Source: a virus. From it: a stretch of 59,744 nucleotides of DNA. The notes beneath the pieces are model-generated. The model was not told the DNA's origin, ran no database searches, and worked only from the letters and a program-made list of their open reading frames with translations. The stretch is taken from positions 1 through 59,744 of IMG/VR virus record IMGVR_UViG_3300042861_000881; one strand, given 5' to 3'. The position numbers were made by a program, and so were the translations under genes. Of the stretch, positions 17,238 through 47,557 are shown piece after piece (position 1 is the first letter of the stretch; each line of letters starts with the position of its first letter).

Positions 17238-18499
17238 TTATTTTATTAAACTTTTATAAAACTCAGCTCTGTTTTTTGTAACAATATTTAAATCATATCT
17301 GTCTTTAACCGTATTATATAATCTTTCACCAAGTTCTTTAATCATATGTGGGTTTTGAACTAACTTTTTAATAGATTTTGCCCAATCACTATGATTTCTA
17401 TTTTCCGGAATTAATATTGCGTTACCTTCTTCATTAAACTCACCATTTTTTAAACAATGAACCAAATCAATTGTGTAAGGACCAATTTCTGACGCGATTA
17501 ACGCTTTCTTATAAAACCCTGCCTCAATAACTTTTAACTGAGATTTCATTCTATTAAAGATGTGGTTTTTAATCGGTGCCAAAGATATGTCAAATTTTGA
17601 ATAATTCATAGCATAAGTTGTAACAGGTTTAGTCCAAACTCTAACATATGGTAAATCATTACCTGATTTGTATTCACCTTCTTTAAATTCTAATAGGAAT
17701 TTTTTATAATCATCATCAATTGTTTTGTAATTGCTGGTAAAAAATTCTTCATAACGAGCCCATACTGTTTCGTGAGGTAAAATTTCTCTTTGTTTTTGTT
17801 CTCCTGTTTGTGGGTTAATCTCGGTAACTGTTCCTCTAGTGTCAAACCCGCAAATAACATATTGTAATTTATCATTTATATCTTGATTTTTTTGAACAAA
17901 ATCACCAAGTAATTCTAAATCGTGTAAGTGGGATGACCCCCCTAACCATCCTACTCTGATTTTATCAGAAGGAGGTGTTGGTTGATTAAATTGTAATTCT
18001 TTTGGATTAATTGCGTTTGGAAACACAATAACGTTTTTATTTAATTTTTTGATTTCATCAGCAAAAATATCGGTTGTTGTTGTTACATAACTCGCAACTC
18101 TTAAATTATTCTTAATTTTTTCATCAATTTTATTTTGAACGATAATATTATGAATAGGATGTTCTTTAGTTGGTAACCAATAATCATCAAGGTCAACAAT
18201 AACTACAATACCGATTGATTTTAACCATTCAATAATTTGTGGTGCCATATCATAGTCCATACCGATTGTACGGTGAGCGTGAACTATCTGATATTTTTTC
18301 CAATATTCGATATTATTTATCTGTGGTTCGTAGTCAATATCTACGTGGAAGTCATCCGGATATAGGTTTTGTAGGAATACGTGGGGGTCAACTGACCTAA
18401 ATTTACCTTTGGTTAACCAACGCCCGTACGGTCAGATGGCAGTACTAATACGCTAATCTTTTCTTGACCGTTAGGGCGTTGAAGTGAGTTTTGTGACAT
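17238..18499 (-). CDS. GT4-like glycosyltransferase, interrupted frame (candidate translational bypass)
   Basis: The first 28 codons, from ATG at 18499, end at GGT (18418-18416) and are followed at once by TAA (18415-18413). The rest of the protein continues in the -1 frame. No start codon lies in the second frame before ATG 18260, which would delete a conserved N-terminal domain. Joining the GGT at 18418 to the matching GGT at 18407-18405 and skipping 11 nt gives PSDRTGVG followed by KFRSVDPHVFLQ, as I expect for this family, and then VDIDYEP and IVHAHRTIG. The 416-residue product has a GT-B fold with VDLDDYWLPTK and VGWLGGSSHLHDL. An inverted repeat abuts the site. Possible causes are programmed bypass as in T4 gene 60, a -1 frameshift, a disrupting mutation, or assembly error. 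Confidence 0.72.
18419..18480 (-). promoter_or_regulatory. Inverted repeat able to form a hairpin next to the frame break
   Basis: On the mRNA strand the arm AACGCCCTAACGGTCA (18480..18465) pairs with TGACCGTACGGGCGTT (18434..18419). The two form 14 of 16 pairs with a small internal mismatch and a 30-nt loop. The 3' arm ends exactly one base before the GGT codon at 18418 that precedes the TAA. Just beyond it lies a perfect 12-bp palindrome, TTGGTTAACCAA (18420..18409). Stems close to a take-off codon are part of known bypass and frameshift signals, but no function is shown here. Confidence 0.65.
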
Positions 18500-18619
18500 A
18501 TTTTTGTAAAATTATGTTTATAAGTTTATTGTTGAGTTTAAGGTCACCCTCCCACACAACTTCTAAATTATAACCATAACTTTTAATTAAGTCAATTTTT
18601 TTTCAGTTTTAATATCCAT
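18471..18619 (-). pseudogene. Fragment resembling the C-terminus of a homing or Vsr-like endonuclease
   Basis: Reading toward the GT4 gene, an open frame encodes KIDLIKSYGYNLEVVWEGD followed by LKLNNKLINIILQK and ends at TAA 18473-18471, overlapping the start of the GT4 gene. The pattern 'K...IK..GYN..VVWE.D' is common at the ends of phage-borne homing endonucleases and Vsr-like nucleases. The only ATG upstream (18619) is in a different frame and the two frames meet at a run of eight A residues (18603..18596), so the piece cannot be made as one protein without slippage. I read it as the decayed tail of a mobile endonuclease. It is only about 45 residues, so the family call is tentative. Confidence 0.5.
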
Positions 18620-21417: not shown

Positions 21418-24400
21418 GTGAGTCAAAATATAAATCAATATCCGAGACCGAATTGGGGTATAAAATTAGCCATCGATGCTAGTGATATGTCTTTAGTTAG
21501 TGATGAGAGAAACTTTAATGAAGAGGTTGTTTTTTCACCATATCTTATTGCCCAAACTTATGGTAATAGATTACCTTTTTCTTTTAATACAAATAATGTA
21601 CTATCAGTCCAACCTTTAAGTTTATTATATAAACAATACAATTTTAATAATATTTTTGTATCAACAAATTATTATAACCCGGACAACATTGATTTAAGTT
21701 GTTTAACCGCTAACACATCTTGTGATATTGGATTAACAGGTATTGATAATGGGTTGGTAACCGGAATGACAGGACAAACTATAACATTTACAAATGGAAT
21801 AAATGATTTTACTAAATTTAATAGATTATCGTTTGACCGAAGATTAAAAATGTTTCAAGTTACGGGATATACTAGTTCGAATGTTAGATTTTCAGGATTT
21901 AATAAAACCATATTATACGAGGTTGTAAGTAAAAATGATTCTGTTGGTTATTACCACGAACTATATGGTGGGTTCTACCAAGGGTTTTACAAACTATTTG
22001 GTTATGATTATGAAATTTTCCCTGAGAGAATGAATAAAGGATGGTCTGTTGAGATGTTATTAAAACCAAGATTGACAAACGAATACACACCATTATCAGA
22101 TGAAACAACATTAAACGAGATATACCCGAATAATAAAGATATTTTCTTTTATTTTGGAACTCGTGCTGAAAATAAATTTTATCATTACGCTGACGGACAT
22201 CCAAGATGTCTTACCGGTTATACTAGAGTTACCTCAGAGGTTACAGGTTTAACGACTTGTGCTTGTTGTAATAATTCAGTTGTTAATAGTAGATGTATCT
22301 ATGTTTATCCACCAAGACCAACTGATGCTGATTGTAATGGTTGTATTACTTGTGGTTGGGAATATAAAATACACGATTGCCCAATTGTAACACCAACACC
22401 TACCCCAACACCTACTCCAACGGCAACACCTTCAAATTGTGAACCAATCATATCTTGTGATGACGGTTGTACTTGTTTAAAATGTTCTTCTTGTAATGAT
22501 TGTAATTCTTGTGATACTTGTAATTTAAAACAGGGTTCCGTTGAAAATACTTGTGAGAGTGACCCATTATATGATTCAATGTCGAATGTAATTGCGTTAA
22601 AATTATGTGGAGAACCAAACAACCCTCAAATAGGTGTGAGACTATTAAGATTTACAGGTGATTGTATTACAACCGGTAGTTGTTCAACTACGGGTATTAC
22701 TTATTCAACAGGATATACTGTAGATAATTATTGCACACCACCAATTTACCCATATTGTTTAGAGATTAACCCAAGTTATTTAAATATAGAACATTGGTTC
22801 CACGTAACGGCCGTTTGGGAGAGATATACTTGGTTAGATACTTGTAATTTATGGTATAGAGGAGGTCTTGGTGATATTACCGAAACCAAATTTTTGGATG
22901 GGTTGGCGGGTAATTCTGTCTCGTTAATTACTGTACCATATACTCAAACTTGTGGTACTGACCCGAAACAAATTGATTTAGTTAATTTAAATGAAAAATG
23001 GTTAATTGATAAAGATTTTAGAAAAGGAAGGTTAAAGATTTATATTAACGGAAGAATATTCCACACATTTCAAGATATTGAGGAAATAATTCCAAGAGCG
23101 TTGAGTACTGATAAAGAAAAACAAGTTGGTGTTCCATATAATGTTTCTTGGGGTGGAGGGACTCAAGGTTTAAGAGAGAATTTAACATTCTCAGCAATTA
23201 CCGGAACAACTTATATTCAAGACCCGGAATCTTTACCAACAAACGATTTATCCGGGACAACGTTTAGTGGATTAACAACCAATATATTATTAGAACAAAA
23301 TTTTGGTGGAACATTTGAAGGGGGAATCTCTCAATTTAGAATGTATATCACACCATTATCGGCTCCGGAAGTAAAACATAATTTTAATCTATTAAAAGAT
23401 ACTTTTGATATGTTTAATCCGGATTGTCCTGATTGTGGGGAGAATTTCTGTCCAACAAATGATTTTACATTTACCATAAATGGACCGAGCCCAACACCTA
23501 GTATTACCCCGACACAAACACCAACAAACACGGTAACCCCAACACAAACACCAACTAATACTGTAACACCGACACAAACACCAACAAATACTATTACACC
23601 TACTAACACACCGACAAACACAGTAACTCCAACACAAACACCGACAAATACACAAACTCCAACTAATACGCAAACACCAACAAATACTCAAACACAAACA
23701 CCAACAAACACGATAACACCGACACAAACACCAACAAACACGATAACACCGACACAAACACCAACAAACACGATAACACCGACACAAACACCAACTAATA
23801 CTCCAACACCAACATCAACACCACCACCTCCATTTATTTCAGTTTGGAGAGTTGATGGCATCCAAGGAATAACATTACCTTACGAGGTGGATGGTAATTA
23901 TAGTGGATTTATTGATTGGGGTGACGGACAAATAAGTAATAACACATACAATAATAGAGAACACATTTATGGAGGACTCCCATCACCCGACCCAACAGAT
24001 TACACAGTAAGAATTTATGGTCAAGTTGATGGATTTAGATTTAACAATGAAGGTGATAAATTAAAACTTATAGATATTACTCAATGGGGTACTAATTTTA
24101 GTTTTGGTAATAAAGGAGGTTATTTCTATGGTTGTAGTAATTTGACATTGAGTGGTGACCCGGGTAATTTAAGTTTTGAAAGAGGAAGTGTAGAGACAAC
24201 TAACTTTAGTAATATGTTCAGAGATTGTGTTTCATTCACTGGTGGTACTACAGGGTGGAAGATTGGTAATGTTACCGATATGTCAAATATGTTTATGAAC
24301 TCGGGAATTAATGAAGACCTTAGTGGATGGAAGGTTAATTCAGTTACAAATATGTCTGGTATGTTTGCAGATACGTCATTCAATTCAAATTTTGTAAATG

Positions 24401-25749
24401 ATAACGATTTTTCAAGTGTGGAAAATATGTCAGGTATGTTTAGTGGAAATACCGCGTATACCCAAAATATTAATAATTGGAATGTAAGTGGTGTTACTGA
24501 TATGTCAAATATGTTTAACGGAGCCACTTCATTTAACCAACCATTATCAGGATGGAATATTAATGGTGACCTTGAGGTGAATATGTCAGGAATGTTTAAA
24601 GGTGCAACATCATTTAATCAAGAATTATATAATGTCGAAACCGGAAGCTGGTTTGTTAGAAACGTTACTGATATGTCAAATATGTTTGATGGAGCCACTT
24701 CATTTAATCAAGATATTAATGATTGGGATGTTAGTAGTGTGGTGAATATGTCAGAAATGTTCAAAGGGGCGACTTTATTTAATTCTCCTCTCGATAAATG
24801 GGGTGAATATGTCGAGAGTGTTATTGATATGTCGGGAATGTTTAGTGGGGCAACATCATTTAAGTCTGACATTAGTGGATGGAATGTTAGTAACGTTACT
24901 AATATGTCAGGAATGTTTAATGGTGCAACATCTTTTAATGTTTCATTATATGATATTGAAACAGAGTTATGGGATGTCTCAAATGTTACTGATATGTCAA
25001 ATATGTTTAAGGGGGCAACCTCATTTGACCAAGCATTGTCAGGGTGGAATGTTTCAAATGTAACTGATATGTCAGGTATGTTCGATGGCACAACCGGGTT
25101 TAATCAATCTATAAATTCTTGGAATGTTAGTGGTGTTACCGATATGTCAAATATGTTTAAGGGTGCAACCTCGTTTAACCAAGTATTGTCAGGGTGGAAT
25201 GTTTCAAATGTAACTGATATGTCAGGTATGTTTAGCGGAGCAACCTCGTTCAATAATGAACTTACAAAGATAGGTGATTATTTTATTAAAGTAACCAATA
25301 TGTCAAATATGTTTAATGGTTCAACCGGGTTTAATAAATCTATAAGTTTTTGGAATGTCTCAAATGTAACTGATATGTCGGGAATGTTTAATGGAGCAAC
25401 CAATTTTAGAGGTGATGGTATAAGTGTTTGGAATGTTTCAAATGTAACCGATATGTCGGAAATGTTTAAGGGGGCAACCGATTTTAATTCTACTTTAGGT
25501 GATTGGAATATTTCAGGGGTTACTAATTTTACTAATTTTATGTCAGGTATAACTAATTTAGGTTATTCATCATCGAATTTAAATGATATTTACAATCAAT
25601 GGTCAACAAGAAATCCAAAAACAGGTTTAACTATTAATTTCGGAAGTATTAATTACACTTCTGCAGGGCAGACAGGAAGAAAAAAATTAACAGATGCAAT
25701 TAATGATGGTGGTTTCGGTTGGACAATTACTGATGGTGGTTTAGTGTAA
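21418..25749 (+). CDS. Giant tail adhesin with LamG-like, Thr/Pro linkers and BspA (DUF285) repeats
   Basis: A 1443-residue protein starting at GTG 21418. Residues about 200-650 contain a concanavalin/LamG-like part ([46 protein letters not shown]). Residues 270-375 hold many cysteines, split by a short TP linker (325-338). Residues 691-804 are a Thr/Pro/Gln/Asn mucin-like linker built from 30-bp tandem repeats. Next comes a PKD-like IDWGDGQ segment (about 830). Residues 920-1380 are BspA/DUF285 repeats ([20 protein letters not shown] type), ending in a C-terminal GWTITDGG module shared with the 28686..30923 protein. It is probably a receptor-binding fibre or decoration protein. No signal peptide is seen, which favours a virion role over host secretion. 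Confidence 0.85.
23490..23830 (+). repeat. In-frame 30-bp tandem repeats coding the Thr/Pro linker
   Basis: The segment encodes repeated TPTQTPTNT(V/I) units. Between about 23697 and 23790 three 30-bp units are identical at the nucleotide level (core ACACCGACACAAACACCAAC), while earlier units have drifted at third positions. The unit length is a multiple of three, so gain or loss of units keeps the reading frame and only changes linker length. Confidence 0.9.
24240..25560 (+). repeat. BspA/DUF285 coding repeat array
   Basis: Roughly 70-100-bp units encode the pattern W-N-V-S-x-V-T-(D/N)-M-S-x-M-F-x-G-A-T-S-F-N. Over a dozen copies are present, some near-identical at the DNA level (for example around 25030-25080 and 25180-25240). 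BspA-type repeats form a leucine-rich-repeat-like solenoid used in adhesion by Mycoplasma, Bacteroidota and oral bacteria. A smaller array of the same unit lies at 30290..30720. Confidence 0.9.
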
Positions 25750-28536: not shown

Positions 28537-28686
28537 ATGATACTAATTAAATATAGAATGATAAACGAGAATGGGTCTTGGATTGAAACAAAACATCTTG
28601 AAGAGGCTGAAACTCACGGTAACTATGTAATTATTACTGAGGAAATAATTGAAAATTCACCGGAAAATTTAATTCAACCTGAGTAA
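28537..28686 (+). CDS. Small 49-residue protein between fibre genes
   Basis: A short gene (49 codons plus stop) fills the gap between two fibre genes and its stop overlaps the next start (TAATG). The product MILIKYRMINENGSWIETKH is followed by an acidic tail, LEEAETHGNYVIITEEIIEN. It looks like a compact beta-alpha-beta unit. Exact spacing and coupling support a real gene; function is unknown. Small partners between fibre genes are sometimes assembly chaperones, but there is no direct evidence. Confidence 0.6.
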   Translation: MILIKYRMINENGSWIETKHLEEAETHGNYVIITEEIIENSPENLIQPE

Positions 28687-30923
28687 TGCAAGTAATACAA
28701 ATCACTAGTTTAACGGGACATTCTCCGTATGATATCACAATTTGTGATGTCACAAACACATATTGTTATTCCGGAGTGACCGGTGCAACAACGGCACCTT
28801 TAACTATTGATTTACCAACAGAATTATTGGGTTCAGAAGAAGTTCTTGTTGTGGTTACAGATTCTATTGGATGTCAAGAAATTCAATACCACGTATGTAC
28901 TACGGTACCAACACCAACACCAACTCCGACACAAACACCAACAATAACACCAACTAATTCCATTTGTAATTGTATATCAATAGAAAACACTTCGGGGATT
29001 ACATTAAATTTTGGTTTTACTCAGTGTGATGGGGAATCATTTTATGGTGAAATTTATTCATCAACAACATTATATGTTTGTGGTACTTTACCATATGGTG
29101 ATAGTGGTGTTGTAATAACAATATCGTCAGATATCTGTACCGGAGATGTATGTCCGGGACCTAGTCCAACCCCAACAACAACACCAACTCCGACCCCAAC
29201 ATTACCACCAATCGTTGGTTATTTTCAAGACACTTGTGACCCTTCTTATGAATTCATATTATCAGATATTCCAATCACATTTAGTCCATTGTCAGGTGTT
29301 TATTATATAAAAAGTTCGGGTTATGTAGGATGTGCTACAAATATTGTAAGTACAACATCAAGTAATATTTTTTCATTTATTGCAATGGGGTCCCAATCTA
29401 GTGTCTACTTTTGTCAAAAATCAAATTTTATTTATCCGTGTCCAACTTTAACACCTACACCAAGTATTACTCCAACAGTGACACCAACACCAAAGGTTAC
29501 GATGACTAAGACACCAACTAAAACACCGACTCAGACACCAACAACAACTATGAAGTATAGTATTTTTAAAGTTATGAATTGTTGTGATGGTAAAACAATT
29601 AAATTTGTTAGTTTACCTCATTATTTTTTATCCGGGACTTCTATTGTTGATACCGATGGTAATTGTTGGGAAATAATATCGATAAGTTCTATCACCCCAA
29701 ATATTATTTGGAACCAGTATACAACATACATAGATTGTAAATTGTGTATAACATATCAAACTTGTTCTCCAACACCGACACCAACACCATTATTTATATC
29801 TGTTTGGGACACAACAATTACTTCGGGTTCTTCTACAGCTTCAAATCAAATACAATTACCTTTGATAAACGGAGGTACATATAATTTTGTGGTTGATTGG
29901 GGAGATGGAACACAAGATACAATTACATCTTGGAATCAAGCAGAAACATTACACACCTATGCAAGTTCAGGAATTTATACTTTAGCAATAGAAGGCACTA
30001 TTTTGGAATGGTCTTTTTTTGAAAGTTTTATTTATTTCGGAGTTTCAGATTCAATAAAATTAACTTCAATATCTTCTTGGGGTAGCTTACAATTTGGTGT
30101 TTTAGCAAACTCAAACTTTAATGGATGCATAAATTTAGATTTAACATCTGTTTCAGATTTACCAAATCTTTCTAACACAATAACTTTAGATAATTGTTTT
30201 TCTGATTGTAATTCATTGACAAATATTAATAGGTCTAATGAATGGGATACTTTTAATGTTAATATTATGATAGCGACTTTTGCTAATAGTAATAATTTCA
30301 ACTCCGATATAAGTTCTTGGGACACAAGTAATGTTAACGATATGAACACTATGTTTAATAGCGCAACTGCGTTCAATCAAGATATTAGCGGTTGGGATGT
30401 AAGTAGCGTTACTAATATGTTAGATATGTTCAATTCCGCTGTTGTTTTTAATCAAAATATTGGTGGTTGGGACGTAAGTAATGTTACGAATATGAGTTTT
30501 ATGTTTGGAAGTGCAACTGCTTTTAATCAAGATATTGGTGGTTGGAATGTAAGTAATGTTACTAATATGAATTCTATGTTTATTTATGCATTTGCCTTTA
30601 ATCAAGATATTGGAGGTTGGAATGTAAGTAATGTTACGGATATGGGTAGTATGTTTAACTCCGCAACTGCTTTCAATCAAGATATTGGTGGTTGGAATGT
30701 TAGTGGTGTTACAAATTTTACCAATTTTATGGCTGATAAAACGTTTAGTGATTACTCAACAACAAATCTTGACGCAATTTATAATGGATGGAGCGCATTA
30801 CCTTCTGTTCAGTCAGGTAGAAATATTACCTTTAACACAATTAAATATACTGCGGCAGGTTCTGCCGGTAAGGCAATCCTTCAAGGAACGTATGGTTGGA
30901 CAATTACCGATGGCGGTATATAA
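28686..30923 (+). CDS. Second tail adhesin with Thr/Pro linkers, WGDG domain and BspA repeats
   Basis: A 745-residue adhesin built like a beads-on-string: small beta or Cys-containing modules separated by Thr/Pro linkers at about residues 72-92, 159-175, 255-288 and 362-368. A PKD-like FVVDWGDGTQDT segment (about 405) follows, and BspA/DUF285 repeats cover about 535-680 ([16 protein letters not shown] units). The C-terminal module NFTNFM...GWTITDGG matches that of the protein at 21418..25749, so the two genes share a repeat plus cap module, probably by duplication or recombination. It is expected on the virion exterior, binding the host surface. There is no signal peptide. Confidence 0.85.
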   Translation: MQVIQITSLTGHSPYDITICDVTNTYCYSGVTGATTAPLTIDLPTELLGSEEVLVVVTDSIGCQEIQYHVCTTVPTPTPTPTQTPTITPTNSICNCISIENTSGITLNFGFTQCDGESFYGEIYSSTTLYVCGTLPYGDSGVVITISSDICTGDVCPGPSPTPTTTPTPTPTLPPIVGYFQDTCDPSYEFILSDIPITFSPLSGVYYIKSSGYVGCATNIVSTTSSNIFSFIAMGSQSSVYFCQKSNFIYPCPTLTPTPSITPTVTPTPKVTMTKTPTKTPTQTPTTTMKYSIFKVMNCCDGKTIKFVSLPHYFLSGTSIVDTDGNCWEIISISSITPNIIWNQYTTYIDCKLCITYQTCSPTPTPTPLFISVWDTTITSGSSTASNQIQLPLINGGTYNFVVDWGDGTQDTITSWNQAETLHTYASSGIYTLAIEGTILEWSFFESFIYFGVSDSIKLTSISSWGSLQFGVLANSNFNGCINLDLTSVSDLPNLSNTITLDNCFSDCNSLTNINRSNEWDTFNVNIMIATFANSNNFNSDISSWDTSNVNDMNTMFNSATAFNQDISGWDVSSVTNMLDMFNSAVVFNQNIGGWDVSNVTNMSFMFGSATAFNQDIGGWNVSNVTNMNSMFIYAFAFNQDIGGWNVSNVTDMGSMFNSATAFNQDIGGWNVSGVTNFTNFMADKTFSDYSTTNLDAIYNGWSALPSVQSGRNITFNTIKYTAAGSAGKAILQGTYGWTITDGGI

Positions 30924-44904: not shown

Positions 44905-45987
44905 TTATCCAATCAATCTTTTCAAACGTTTTTTATTGATATGTAGTTGTTGTGATATATCTTCAAACATCGTTGTTTGATTTGGGTTCTCATTTTTTTG
45001 GAGTTTTTCTAATTCCTGTGATAATTGTTTTATTCTATTCTGATATTGTTTTATTAGTAAATCCTTAGAACGAGACAACTTTGGTTTAATAATCCGATTG
45101 GGTTCAGATTCTTTTTCCTTGAAATCTATATTTGTTTCTAACGGTTCTTCATAATAAATTATATTAAATTTCGGCATATTTTTATTATAGTAAGGTCTGT
45201 GTACAGTAACTATTTTACTATAATCATTATTGAATAGAACATATTTTTTAGGATTTTTATCTATATCAACATACATAATCACATCAACATTTGATTCTTT
45301 ATATTTAGAAGATTCGTTATAAGATGGTATTGAATAATAATACCCTCTTTCAGAATTATATTTTTGAATATCTTCACTGTTAATAGTTTTGATTTGAAAA
45401 TAATAATTTATATTGTCAATTATTACATCAAAATCTTGACCTAATTTTCTATCTCTTATATCACCAGCACAATGTTGTTTTATTGTTGCTTCCGGATAAA
45501 TTTTTTGAATTATTGTTTGAGCAAAACTTTCACCTTGATATCCTTTTTCTAATGTTTTTTTGTTTTCATCAACAAGTTGTTTTGTATATTTACCATTAAA
45601 TAATTCTTTAGAATTATCATTAATCCATTTTTTTAAATTAGATTTATTTTTATTATTATCTTGGTTATATAATTCTTCTATTTTTTTTATAACATTAGTA
45701 TTTGTATCAAATCTATTAACAACAGACCAATCACTTAAATTTTTATTATTAAATATAATTTTTTCAGTATAAGGACCTCCAATGACACCATAATCAGTTT
45801 TACATTCATCATTTGTTATTTGTCCAATACACCCATTCGTGTCATTCAAACCATTACATTTATCATATTGAGAGTTAATTAATGATTGCAAAGTTTTACT
45901 TGTAAATGGAAAATTAATGTTGTTAATATCCTCATTTATATTTTCTTTGATATATTCTTTTAATATTTCTAAAATAATTTCTTTCAT
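44905..45987 (-). CDS. PD-(D/E)XK nuclease-like protein A
   Basis: A 360-residue protein with a probable PD-(D/E)XK nuclease core. E153 lies in KGYQGESFAQTIIQ, the acidic D185 in GQDFDVIIDNINYY and the Q-x-K pair in FQIKT (Q198, K200), an order seen in several restriction-like folds. Residues 1-140 carry a Cys-containing region (YDKCNGLNDTNGCIG, DECKTDYG) of unknown role. The C-terminus is a helical, Gln/Lys-rich coiled-coil-like segment (IKQLSQELEKLQKNENP). It could be a free-standing endonuclease, a phage-encoded restriction or defence element, or a homing-type enzyme. Located in the nuclease island with 46000..46884 and 46898..47557. Confidence 0.68.
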   Translation of the reverse strand: MKEIILEILKEYIKENINEDINNINFPFTSKTLQSLINSQYDKCNGLNDTNGCIGQITNDECKTDYGVIGGPYTEKIIFNNKNLSDWSVVNRFDTNTNVIKKIEELYNQDNNKNKSNLKKWINDNSKELFNGKYTKQLVDENKKTLEKGYQGESFAQTIIQKIYPEATIKQHCAGDIRDRKLGQDFDVIIDNINYYFQIKTINSEDIQKYNSERGYYYSIPSYNESSKYKESNVDVIMYVDIDKNPKKYVLFNNDYSKIVTVHRPYYNKNMPKFNIIYYEEPLETNIDFKEKESEPNRIIKPKLSRSKDLLIKQYQNRIKQLSQELEKLQKNENPNQTTMFEDISQQLHINKKRLKRLIG

Positions 45988-45999
45988 ACTCTATAAATA

Positions 46000-46884
46000 T
46001 CACGATAGATTATAAATTAAATTTTCCTGAGGAAAAACAAAATTACCATCAATAATTTTAGAATTATGGTTATCAAACACTAAAATTTCTTTATTATTCT
46101 TAGAGAAAATTAACAAGTCTGTTTTATATTTCTTAACATTACCGGCTCCCATAACATAAGTTAACCCCTCTTCAGTTTTGGTATTTGTGAATGGTTTAAT
46201 TTGAGCAGTTTTTCTTTCACCATCAACAATTATTTCACAATCAATTCCACCAATCATATCTTCACTACTACCAAGTTTACCGACAGCATTTACATTATCT
46301 TTACCAAATTGTTTTTTAAGGATTTCAACTGTAGTGTCTTCTCGTTTTTGACCCCAAGCGTGGGTTTGACCTAATACCATCATAAGAGATTGGAATGTCG
46401 ATGACTCGGGATTAAAAATTCTGTCTTTATATTTGTCGATTATATTAACAAATTTTTTAACTTGATTTAATTGTTCGAAAACATTTGAGTTTTGAAATGA
46501 TATTGGTTGTTGTTTTTGAGATACTAAAACTTTGTTAACATCTCGAAGTAACACACAAAAACAATTGTAGTTTGTGTTTAATTTGTTTATTACTGAACGA
46601 CCTTCTTGTTCTAAATCATATATTCCGGACATCTCACCTTCACCATATTTTCCTTTATCATAATAATTTTCAGGAAAAACATCTTTTAAGATATTGTTGA
46701 TTGAGTTTTTAAATAAATTTTTAACTCTTGGGTTTGTGTTGAATACTTGTCTAATTTCTTCAACTTTAGATGGTGAACATTTTTCGGCTTTTGATTCTGA
46801 TAACACTAACGTTATTTTTCTATCCGATTCATTTTTTTTAATCTCTTTAATTATAAGATTAACTTTGTTTTCTGTGTTTTTCAT
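46000..46884 (-). CDS. PD-(D/E)XK nuclease-like protein B
   Basis: A 294-residue protein with a second restriction-like core: E182 in KREDTTVEILKKQ, D215 in IGGIDCEIIVDGERKTAQIK and the Q228-x-K230 pair at its end. The spacing D-x12-Q-x-K is the same as that of D185/Q198/K200 in the neighbouring protein A, which suggests relatives or convergent types of one superfamily. A small N-terminal basic region and central coiled-coil-like QLNQVKKFVNIIDKYKDR segment lie before it. No helicase or methyltransferase partner is adjacent. Its natural target is unknown. A 12-bp gap separates its start-side neighbour, the HNH gene. Confidence 0.7.
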   Translation of the reverse strand: MKNTENKVNLIIKEIKKNESDRKITLVLSESKAEKCSPSKVEEIRQVFNTNPRVKNLFKNSINNILKDVFPENYYDKGKYGEGEMSGIYDLEQEGRSVINKLNTNYNCFCVLLRDVNKVLVSQKQQPISFQNSNVFEQLNQVKKFVNIIDKYKDRIFNPESSTFQSLMMVLGQTHAWGQKREDTTVEILKKQFGKDNVNAVGKLGSSEDMIGGIDCEIIVDGERKTAQIKPFTNTKTEEGLTYVMGAGNVKKYKTDLLIFSKNNKEILVFDNHNSKIIDGNFVFPQENLIYNLS

Positions 46885-46897
46885 ATAGGCTTGTTTG

Positions 46898-47557
46898 TTA
46901 TATAAGTATCTTATTACTCTTTTTTAAGTTGTCTTTAGCCCATAGTGGTTGAAGATTAGAGTAATGACATAACTTATACAATTCTTCTTCTGTTTTTGCG
47001 GAGGATAATGGAATTATGTGGTCAATGTGCCATCCAAATAATCCGTGGTTATCCCAATTCATATCACCAACAAATTGATTCTCTAAATGTTCTTTTAAGA
47101 ATTGAGAGGTACATCCAATAATATCAAAAGTTTTTCCATCTTTTTTTGACCCCAAGATTTTATTTAATTTACTTCGGTAGTGATGTTTTAACTTAAAAAT
47201 TGGGTCATTTTTTTTCTTTATTAAAATTTGAATATTTATTTTATTTTTATTTTTTTGATAATATAATGAACTATACCCTGAATTGTTTTTTCTCCAATTA
47301 TCAGACCTTTGTATTACTTTTTCCGGATTATTTTCTCTATATTTTTTACCTCTATCTAAATTTTTTTGAGAATATTTTTTAAGATATTTTTCTTTTTGTA
47401 ATTTTACTTTTTCCGGATTATTTTGTCTCCATTCTTTAGAATCTTTACTATTACATTCTTTACAAGAACTTCGTTTTCCGTCTTTAGTTCGTTTATGAGA
47501 ACCAAACTGACAAATGGTTTTTTCTTCTTTACACTTACTACAAATCTTTGTTTCCAT
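46898..47557 (-). CDS. HNH homing-type endonuclease
   Basis: A 219-residue free-standing HNH endonuclease. Two zinc-binding Cys pairs at the N-terminus (CSKCKEEK and CKECN) precede a Lys/Asn-rich linker of repeated RxNNPEKV segments. The catalytic ββα-metal core is at the C-terminus: GWHIDHIIPLSSAKTEEELY with H-x-D-H, then CHYSNLQPLWAKDNLKKSNK with N..N. This is typical of phage-encoded homing endonucleases that spread by DNA cleavage and repair. The small ribbon-helix-helix gene upstream overlaps its start by 20 bp. Movement between phages is likely given the family, but no flanking duplication is seen. Confidence 0.88.
   Translation of the reverse strand: METKICSKCKEEKTICQFGSHKRTKDGKRSSCKECNSKDSKEWRQNNPEKVKLQKEKYLKKYSQKNLDRGKKYRENNPEKVIQRSDNWRKNNSGYSSLYYQKNKNKINIQILIKKKNDPIFKLKHHYRSKLNKILGSKKDGKTFDIIGCTSQFLKEHLENQFVGDMNWDNHGLFGWHIDHIIPLSSAKTEEELYKLCHYSNLQPLWAKDNLKKSNKILI

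Follow-up and report, generated by a model that had tools for sequence, protein, structure and literature searches.

Candidate programmed translational bypassing in interrupted phage glycosyltransferase genes linked to a VSR-like homing endonuclease

How can a phage glycosyltransferase (GT) gene be expressed when its 28th codon is followed directly by a stop codon and the remainder of its reading frame resumes only several nucleotides further on? We addressed this question at a locus of the IMG/VR record IMGVR_UViG_3300042861_000881, analyzed from positions 1 to 59,744 (59,744 nt; this whole stretch is hereafter called the window). The window is a contig of an uncultured contractile-tailed phage encoding a tail sheath, a head-tail adaptor and a DNA polymerase; the polymerase is 23-29% identical to those of Salinibacter, Nostoc and Dolichospermum phages among the matches listed, and the contig is remote from cultured phages. 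Work on efficient translational bypassing has centred almost wholly on a single bacterial gene, T4 gene 60, which combines matched codons, an immediate stop, a 5' stem-loop and a defective homing endonuclease upstream (PMC5009743, PMC3014915, PMC11194080). Shorter counterparts of the T4 bypass have long been expected, and no natural in-frame stop-hop was known (PMC5009743).

The interrupted gene and its contiguous relatives

Reading of the minus strand confirmed the layout from which a sequence-only reading of this DNA had proposed a short bypass of the T4 kind, namely GGT as codon 28, an immediate TAA and a second GGT, in frame with the rest of the gene, eight bases on (Table 1). The window junction reads GGT-TAA-CCAAA-GGT-AAA, and we refer to the two GGT codons as the take-off and landing codons. 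Starting at the landing GGT, the second frame has 389 codons before its stop at 17240-17238, and its first ATG (18260) lies 49 codons into the frame. The 14-of-16 inverted repeat described upstream of the take-off codon was also recovered, with 14/16 positions of the arms 18480-18465 and 18434-18419 paired; it had been placed one base before the take-off GGT, whereas the right arm touches this codon with zero bases between. The 12-bp palindrome proposed across the gap is present as well, but was rejected as a general element of the hop and is probably incidental, because it is mostly unconserved in the relatives.

Table 1. Coordinates of features at the interrupted GT gene of the window
Feature	Position	Strand	Basis or remark
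GT start codon ATG	18499-18497	(-)	sequence read directly
GT first segment, 28 codons, MSQNSLQRPNGQEKISVLVLPSDRTGVG, last codon the take-off GGT	18416..18499	(-)	family peptide SDxTGVG contiguous with KFRS in homologues
Take-off codon GGT (GT codon 28)	18418-18416	(-)	sequence read directly
Gap TAACCAAA, 8 nt, putatively untranslated; first three bases are the stop TAA	18408..18415	(-)	
Stop TAA, directly 3' of take-off GGT	18415-18413	(-)	sequence read directly
Putative landing codon GGT, match to take-off codon	18405..18407	(-)	sequence and relatives
AAA, proposed first codon decoded after landing	18404-18402	(-)	
GT second segment, predicted GT-B/GT4-type	17238..18407	(-)	similarity and purifying selection
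Left arm of 5' stem-loop	18465..18480	(-)	also holds stop codon of the endonuclease remnant (18473-18471)
Right arm of 5' stem-loop	18419..18434	(-)	directly abuts take-off codon
12-bp palindrome TTGGTTAACCAA across take-off and gap	18409..18420	(-)	mostly not conserved in relatives
Homing endonuclease gene remnant, 149 nt	18471..18619	(-)	~766 nt deleted, frame lost; intact 304-codon copy in L001

The second segment, used as a protein query, retrieved 67 viral contigs, most of them with an uninterrupted GT gene. These contiguous relatives read ..PSDKTGVG-KFRSVDPHV.., a glycine codon and then a lysine codon with nothing between, and the continuity of the N-terminus with KFRSVDPHV that the sequence-only reading had anticipated for homologues thus holds in many GT relatives. 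Furthermore, 47 distinct interrupted versions were identified among IMG/VR contigs, drawn from this protein search and from further searches by pattern, with the endonuclease and with a more distantly related GT clade. Because the pattern-based searches enriched some versions, the 33/47 versions that came from searches without a stop-codon requirement are given separately: a stop directly follows the take-off codon in 47/47 versions and in 33/33 of this subset (24 TGA, 21 TAA and 2 TAG among the 47). The gaps measure 2 nt in three versions, 3 nt in 28, 4 nt in three, 5 nt in four, 6 nt in one, 8 nt in five, 9 nt in two and 10 nt in one, so that this range of 2-10 nt represents all three frames. 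The recurrence of the stop, the resumption codon and a hairpin in distinct relatives indicates, at the level of sequence, that their combination is more than chance. L290, L070, L077, L080, L086 and L092 were rejected as versions, being chance pattern matches, and a generic screen of all fetched loci for the same codon flanking a stop, an open frame and strong pairing returned mainly G+C-rich noise outside the GT gene.

The second segment matches phrog_7162 (E 2e-42), while its GT matches in Pfam fall below the curated cut-off. Foldseek with the model of a contiguous relative gave BshA and a family GT4 enzyme, of GT-B fold, as best matches, and the gene product is accordingly a predicted GT-B/GT4-type glycosyltransferase. 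The model has modest overall confidence (pLDDT 61) with a well predicted first strand, and the break maps to the loop after this strand (strand 5-10, loop 11-22).

Codons and hairpin at the break

Among the 19 versions whose gap differs from 3 nt, the take-off/landing pairs were GGT/GGT (9), AGC/AGC (5), GGC/GGT (2), AGC/AGT (1), GGC/GGA (1) and AGC/AGA (1). In 17/19 of them the take-off tRNA can also read the landing codon, which is identical to the take-off codon in 14/19; glycine take-off goes with glycine landing in 12/12 and serine AGC take-off with AGN in 7/7, the pair changing jointly from GGN to AGC. TCN accounts for 20/40 serine codons in the contiguous relatives of the serine versions and was never found as a landing codon. 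A looser match was observed in the 28 versions with 3-nt gaps (GGC/GGT 12, GGT/GGT 5, GGT/GGC 4, GGT/GGA 6, AGT/GGC 1). In a hop by the tRNA the landing codon would go undecoded, and its identity would therefore matter for re-pairing alone. GGG in the landing position was found in 0/44 interrupted versions vs 10/35 contiguous genes, and GGY:GGR was 28:6 for interrupted landing codons vs 8:24 in contiguous genes (Fisher 5e-6), a GGY preference that was only suggestive in phylogenetically independent pairs (median p 0.07). Among the points against bypassing, hops from GGC to GGA and from AGC to AGA would need third-base mismatch pairing.

Two versions deviate in their own ways. L154 has AGT as take-off, TAA and then GGC, so that take-off and landing codons encode different amino acids; L192, with an AGC take-off, a 5-nt gap and the third-base mismatch of an AGA landing, yet has the strongest hairpin of all (-29.8 kcal/mol).

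A strong 5' hairpin was present in every interrupted version examined and absent from the contiguous relatives. Specifically, the sequence immediately 5' of the take-off codon pairs with sequence farther upstream at energies of -17.0 to -29.8 kcal/mol in 41 interrupted versions vs -1.4 to -8.0 in 34 contiguous genes, with no overlap. Variation in the right arm falls largely at third codon positions, and the left arm covaries with it: column 62 shows six pair types with 40/41 paired, and column 65 shows C-G 34, G-C 4 and U-A 3, in an alignment whose left-arm register was picked per sequence for maximal pairing and is to that extent biased toward pairing. In a fixed-register control with 12 versions, 91% of cells were paired vs 28-48% when the arms were slid, and the covariation score exceeded all 500 shuffles. 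In addition, GGG encodes the glycine two codons ahead of the take-off in 37/44 interrupted versions vs 2/35 contiguous genes, an excess that holds in independent pairs (median p 0.004).

Other candidate signals were less regular. A local stem of 4-5 bp, a candidate for a take-off stem-loop around take-off and stop, was predicted in the window, L015, L153 and L166 and in none of L072, L124 and L063. Weak enrichment of pairing between GGGG of the right arm and GACCCC downstream (p 0.04, uncorrected for kinship) was dropped. The leaders are 26-28 residues long with variable N-terminal residues, and inspection by eye found in them no shared basic motif as expected of a T4-type nascent-peptide signal, which, together with the shortness of the leader, counts against bypassing; a signal of another kind may reside there. 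Neither the window nor any of 24 hop loci contains a tRNA gene, and a special tRNA borne nearby by the phage is therefore unsupported.

These data bear on a rival in which the hairpin stimulates readthrough of the stop, or a common -1/+1 frameshift there, and the GT gains a few extra residues. The frame is indeed kept across the 3-nt gap in 28/47 versions, where readthrough would add two residues and could account for these versions considered by themselves, and gaps of 8, 5 and 2 nt could be crossed by -1 shifts and those of 4 and 10 nt by +1 shifts. However, three recoding modes would then be required at one site, in one family and with one hairpin; no slippery sequence is apparent and the stops comprise TAA, TGA and TAG; the contiguous homologues are without the extra residues; and the codon matching, the joint switch to AGC and the avoidance of TCN and GGG in landing would all be left unexplained. 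We therefore consider readthrough or frameshifting unlikely, while bypassing is the single reading that covers every version.

A mobile endonuclease cassette

Most interrupted versions are preceded by an endonuclease ORF of ~300-315 codons whose 3' end falls within or close to the hairpin's left arm. This ORF contains NUMOD3 motifs (E 3e-8) and shows sequence similarity to the DNA-binding domain of I-TevI (E 1e-4); for the fold of its catalytic domain, the best relevant matches were I-Bth0305I and Vsr, none of which reached E 0.001, with a TM of 0.76 by target length to the I-Bth0305I structure 3r3p. The fold and motifs predict a VSR-like (EDxHD-type) homing endonuclease with NUMOD3 motifs, and searches of cultured-phage, plasmid and bacterial genome collections found no close relative. 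I-Bth0305I, which belongs to an intron setting, shares the EDxHD/VSR-like catalytic-domain fold, but the endonuclease of the GT cassette is free-standing, carries NUMOD3 DNA-binding motifs and is linked to the hop. Contiguous GT genes with an adjacent endonuclease mostly have a shorter type of ~253 codons, without the hairpin. This shorter type, found before the hop-less GT genes of L123, L129, L130, L135-L138, L151, L152 and L160, is without the region between NUMOD3 and nuclease.

In the GT tree, interrupted and contiguous genes were interspersed, with 19 changes of which at least 14 were forced by well-supported branches. Because the cassette spreads as a unit, the gains on this tree are not independent origins of the hop, and such origins are fewer than the versions. 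A direct comparison was provided by L026 (filled) and L024 (empty), whose upstream flanks are 93% identical: the former has a cassette of ~1.03 kb where the latter has ~110 nt, and the GT sequence after the cassette is 86-98% identical for ~500 nt and then 100% identical. This gradient is, as far as the sequences go, that expected of copying during double-strand-break repair (co-conversion). The family thus presents an endonuclease linked to the hop, filled and empty alleles and a co-conversion gradient, the features by which we recognize a homing cassette.

Since the left arm includes the endonuclease stop codon, and regulatory hairpins are frequent at phage homing endonucleases (PMC3014915), the hairpin might serve the endonuclease gene, as a terminator, in translational control or in DNA recognition, instead of bypassing. 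Nevertheless, hairpin and hop are kept together where the endonuclease has been lost or is absent (the window, L073, L085, L089, L093, L179, L184 and L192), which argues that the hairpin serves the hop and not merely the endonuclease gene; L088 has likewise lost the endonuclease of its near twin L076, and the hop is retained in both. No T-run follows the hairpin, and the contiguous genes are without it even beside the short endonuclease. A role confined to the endonuclease gene appears decidedly unlikely.

As a separate observation, the second segment of the hop-bearing GT genes of L153, L157, L166, L173 and L179 also seems to carry an in-frame insertion of intein type, placed after WLGGS(C) or close to KMKC; one GT gene would then host two kinds of homing element.

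Coding on both sides of the break and the proposed bypass

Coding constraint was found on both sides of the break. Across the interrupted versions, pN/pS was 0.24 for the last 15 codons of the first segment (0.23 in contiguous genes) and 0.27 for the first 46 codons of the second (0.16 in contiguous genes), values that are rough because synonymous changes are near saturation. This conservation indicates that both GT segments are expressed as protein. In the window, these 46 codons would be untranslatable without joining, because the first ATG of the frame comes after them. An insertion that kills the gene, or leaves two separate products with an internal start in the second frame (ORF2), would accord with the capacity of homing elements to disrupt genes and with the ATG at 18260. 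However, ORF2 is of full length (~388 codons) in nearly all versions, its first 46 codons are under purifying selection, L001 and L048 have no ATG, GTG or TTG within 100 codons after the landing site, and ORF2 by itself is missing the predicted first strand (residues 5-10), all of which makes loss of the gene or two products highly improbable. A sequencing or assembly artefact is a negligible prospect even for data that are metagenomic contigs throughout, because identical junctions recur in contigs whose dataset numbers differ (L015/L016/L017; L089/L094/L095; L124/L125/L127; L166/L167/L168) and one architecture is maintained across divergent versions.

The recurrence, the matched codons, the covarying hairpin, the two-sided coding constraint and the mobility of the cassette, all read from sequence, make it highly probable that the GT gene is read by programmed translational bypassing and that this is spread by a homing endonuclease, as for T4 mobA/gene 60. 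The bypass first suggested for the window is thereby supported by 47 variants in three frames, and the likeness then drawn to T4 gene 60 extends to the family in the immediate stop, the hairpin and the matched codons. The other outcomes then considered, a plain frameshift mutation, a start at ATG 18260 and a -1 frameshift, fit poorly with these variants, because coding is conserved on both sides of the gap and the hairpin covaries. The sequence-only reading had missed the whole family, the link to the endonuclease, and the hairpin and codon matching as shared parts.

We infer the following ribosomal steps for the window. The ribosome would translate 28 codons up to GGT, and the stop codon would enter the A site; peptidyl-tRNA(Gly) would dissociate, the ribosome would slide 11 nt and the tRNA would re-pair on the next GGT; decoding would then restart at AAA, giving the product ..SDRTGVG-KFRSVDPHV... 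In the model for T4 gene 60, part of the 5' stem-loop forms beyond the exit channel, and the stem-loop acts as a motor by completing itself as mRNA is released (PMC5009743). On this model, the slide in the GT gene is probably driven by the hairpin, the right arm of which ends at the take-off codon. With the right arm at about positions -16 to -1 from the take-off codon, the geometry suggests that there could be room behind the ribosome for the upper helix to form, while the lower one would sit in the mRNA exit path until a movement of a few bases, comparable with the 5-13 nt skipped. The gap and hairpin would form the 3' end of a mobile cassette of ~1 kb inserted just upstream of the GT start, with the VSR-like (EDxHD-type) endonuclease with NUMOD3 motifs as its other part; by analogy with T4 mobA/gene 60, the gap probably splits the site that the endonuclease itself would cut, and thereby gives protection from cleavage. 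In the window, the endonuclease would have decayed through deletion with the hop still present, presumably because nothing but exact removal would restore the gene.

The proposed bypass can be set beside several known systems. First, T4 gene 60 with mobA likewise has a glycine take-off, an immediate stop, a matched landing codon and an upstream stem-loop, an endonuclease gene just upstream that is defective in T4 as in the window, and gap-less relatives. It differs in that T4 gene 60 skips 50 nt and the GT versions 5-13 nt (gap plus landing codon), and in that its leader has 46 codons with KKYK whereas the GT leader has ~28 with a variable N-terminus, KKYK not being evident. The GT versions use glycine or serine codons instead of glycine alone, their hairpin abuts the take-off codon, and they have no consistent take-off stem-loop, unlike T4 gene 60. 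Furthermore, the host gene is a glycosyltransferase instead of a topoisomerase, the nuclease is VSR-like with NUMOD3 instead of HNH, and 47 versions stand against one. Second, synthetic stop-hops in E. coli use a 9-nt codon-stop-codon sequence with re-pairing (PMC5009743), the same layout as in the 28 versions with 3-nt gaps, but the GT versions are natural and have a strong conserved hairpin. Third, the bypassing elements of Magnusiomyces capitatus mitochondria are similarly many short blocks that translation must skip, but they are mitochondrial and seem to need neither a given mRNA context nor strict codon matching (PMC5009743). Fourth, the Streptomyces phage Hau3 terminase, a likely bypass, also has a short gap in a phage gene, but involves the rare codon UUA, and the review describes no endonuclease cassette (PMC5009743). 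Searches of a literature collection of incomplete coverage turned up no account of bypassing in GT genes of this kind.

Beyond this one gene, the sequences make it likely that short stop-triggered programmed hops (5-13 nt, with glycine or serine tRNA, a push from a 5' hairpin and no nascent-peptide signal like that of T4) are a class of their own, widespread among uncultured phages and passed horizontally between them. Their carriers would be VSR-like homing endonucleases, which use the hop to remain harmless within a gene while their own target is blocked; this class would include the first natural in-frame stop-hops. If so, the partnership of endonuclease and bypass in T4 is no one-off but a strategy of selfish elements, and gene callers would split such genes in many phage genomes. 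In addition, the family offers a natural mutagenesis series for ribosome release and landing, with 47 variants, gaps of 2-10 nt, two tRNA types, all three stop codons and a hairpin that covaries.

Several minor features were noted in passing. Upstream of the contiguous GT genes of L018-L065 lies a common terminator-like element, GGGG-TTTTTT, with TTGATATT...TATATTTT after it, a putative promoter that to the eye resembles the Bacteroidota type. In the window, an ORF at 46898-47557 looks HNH-endonuclease-like by eye and adjoins two nuclease-like ORFs (44905-46884), and large proteins with PT-rich and BspA-like (MFxGATxFNQ) repeats are encoded at 21418-25749 and 28686-30923; the latter are probably phage surface or adhesion proteins.
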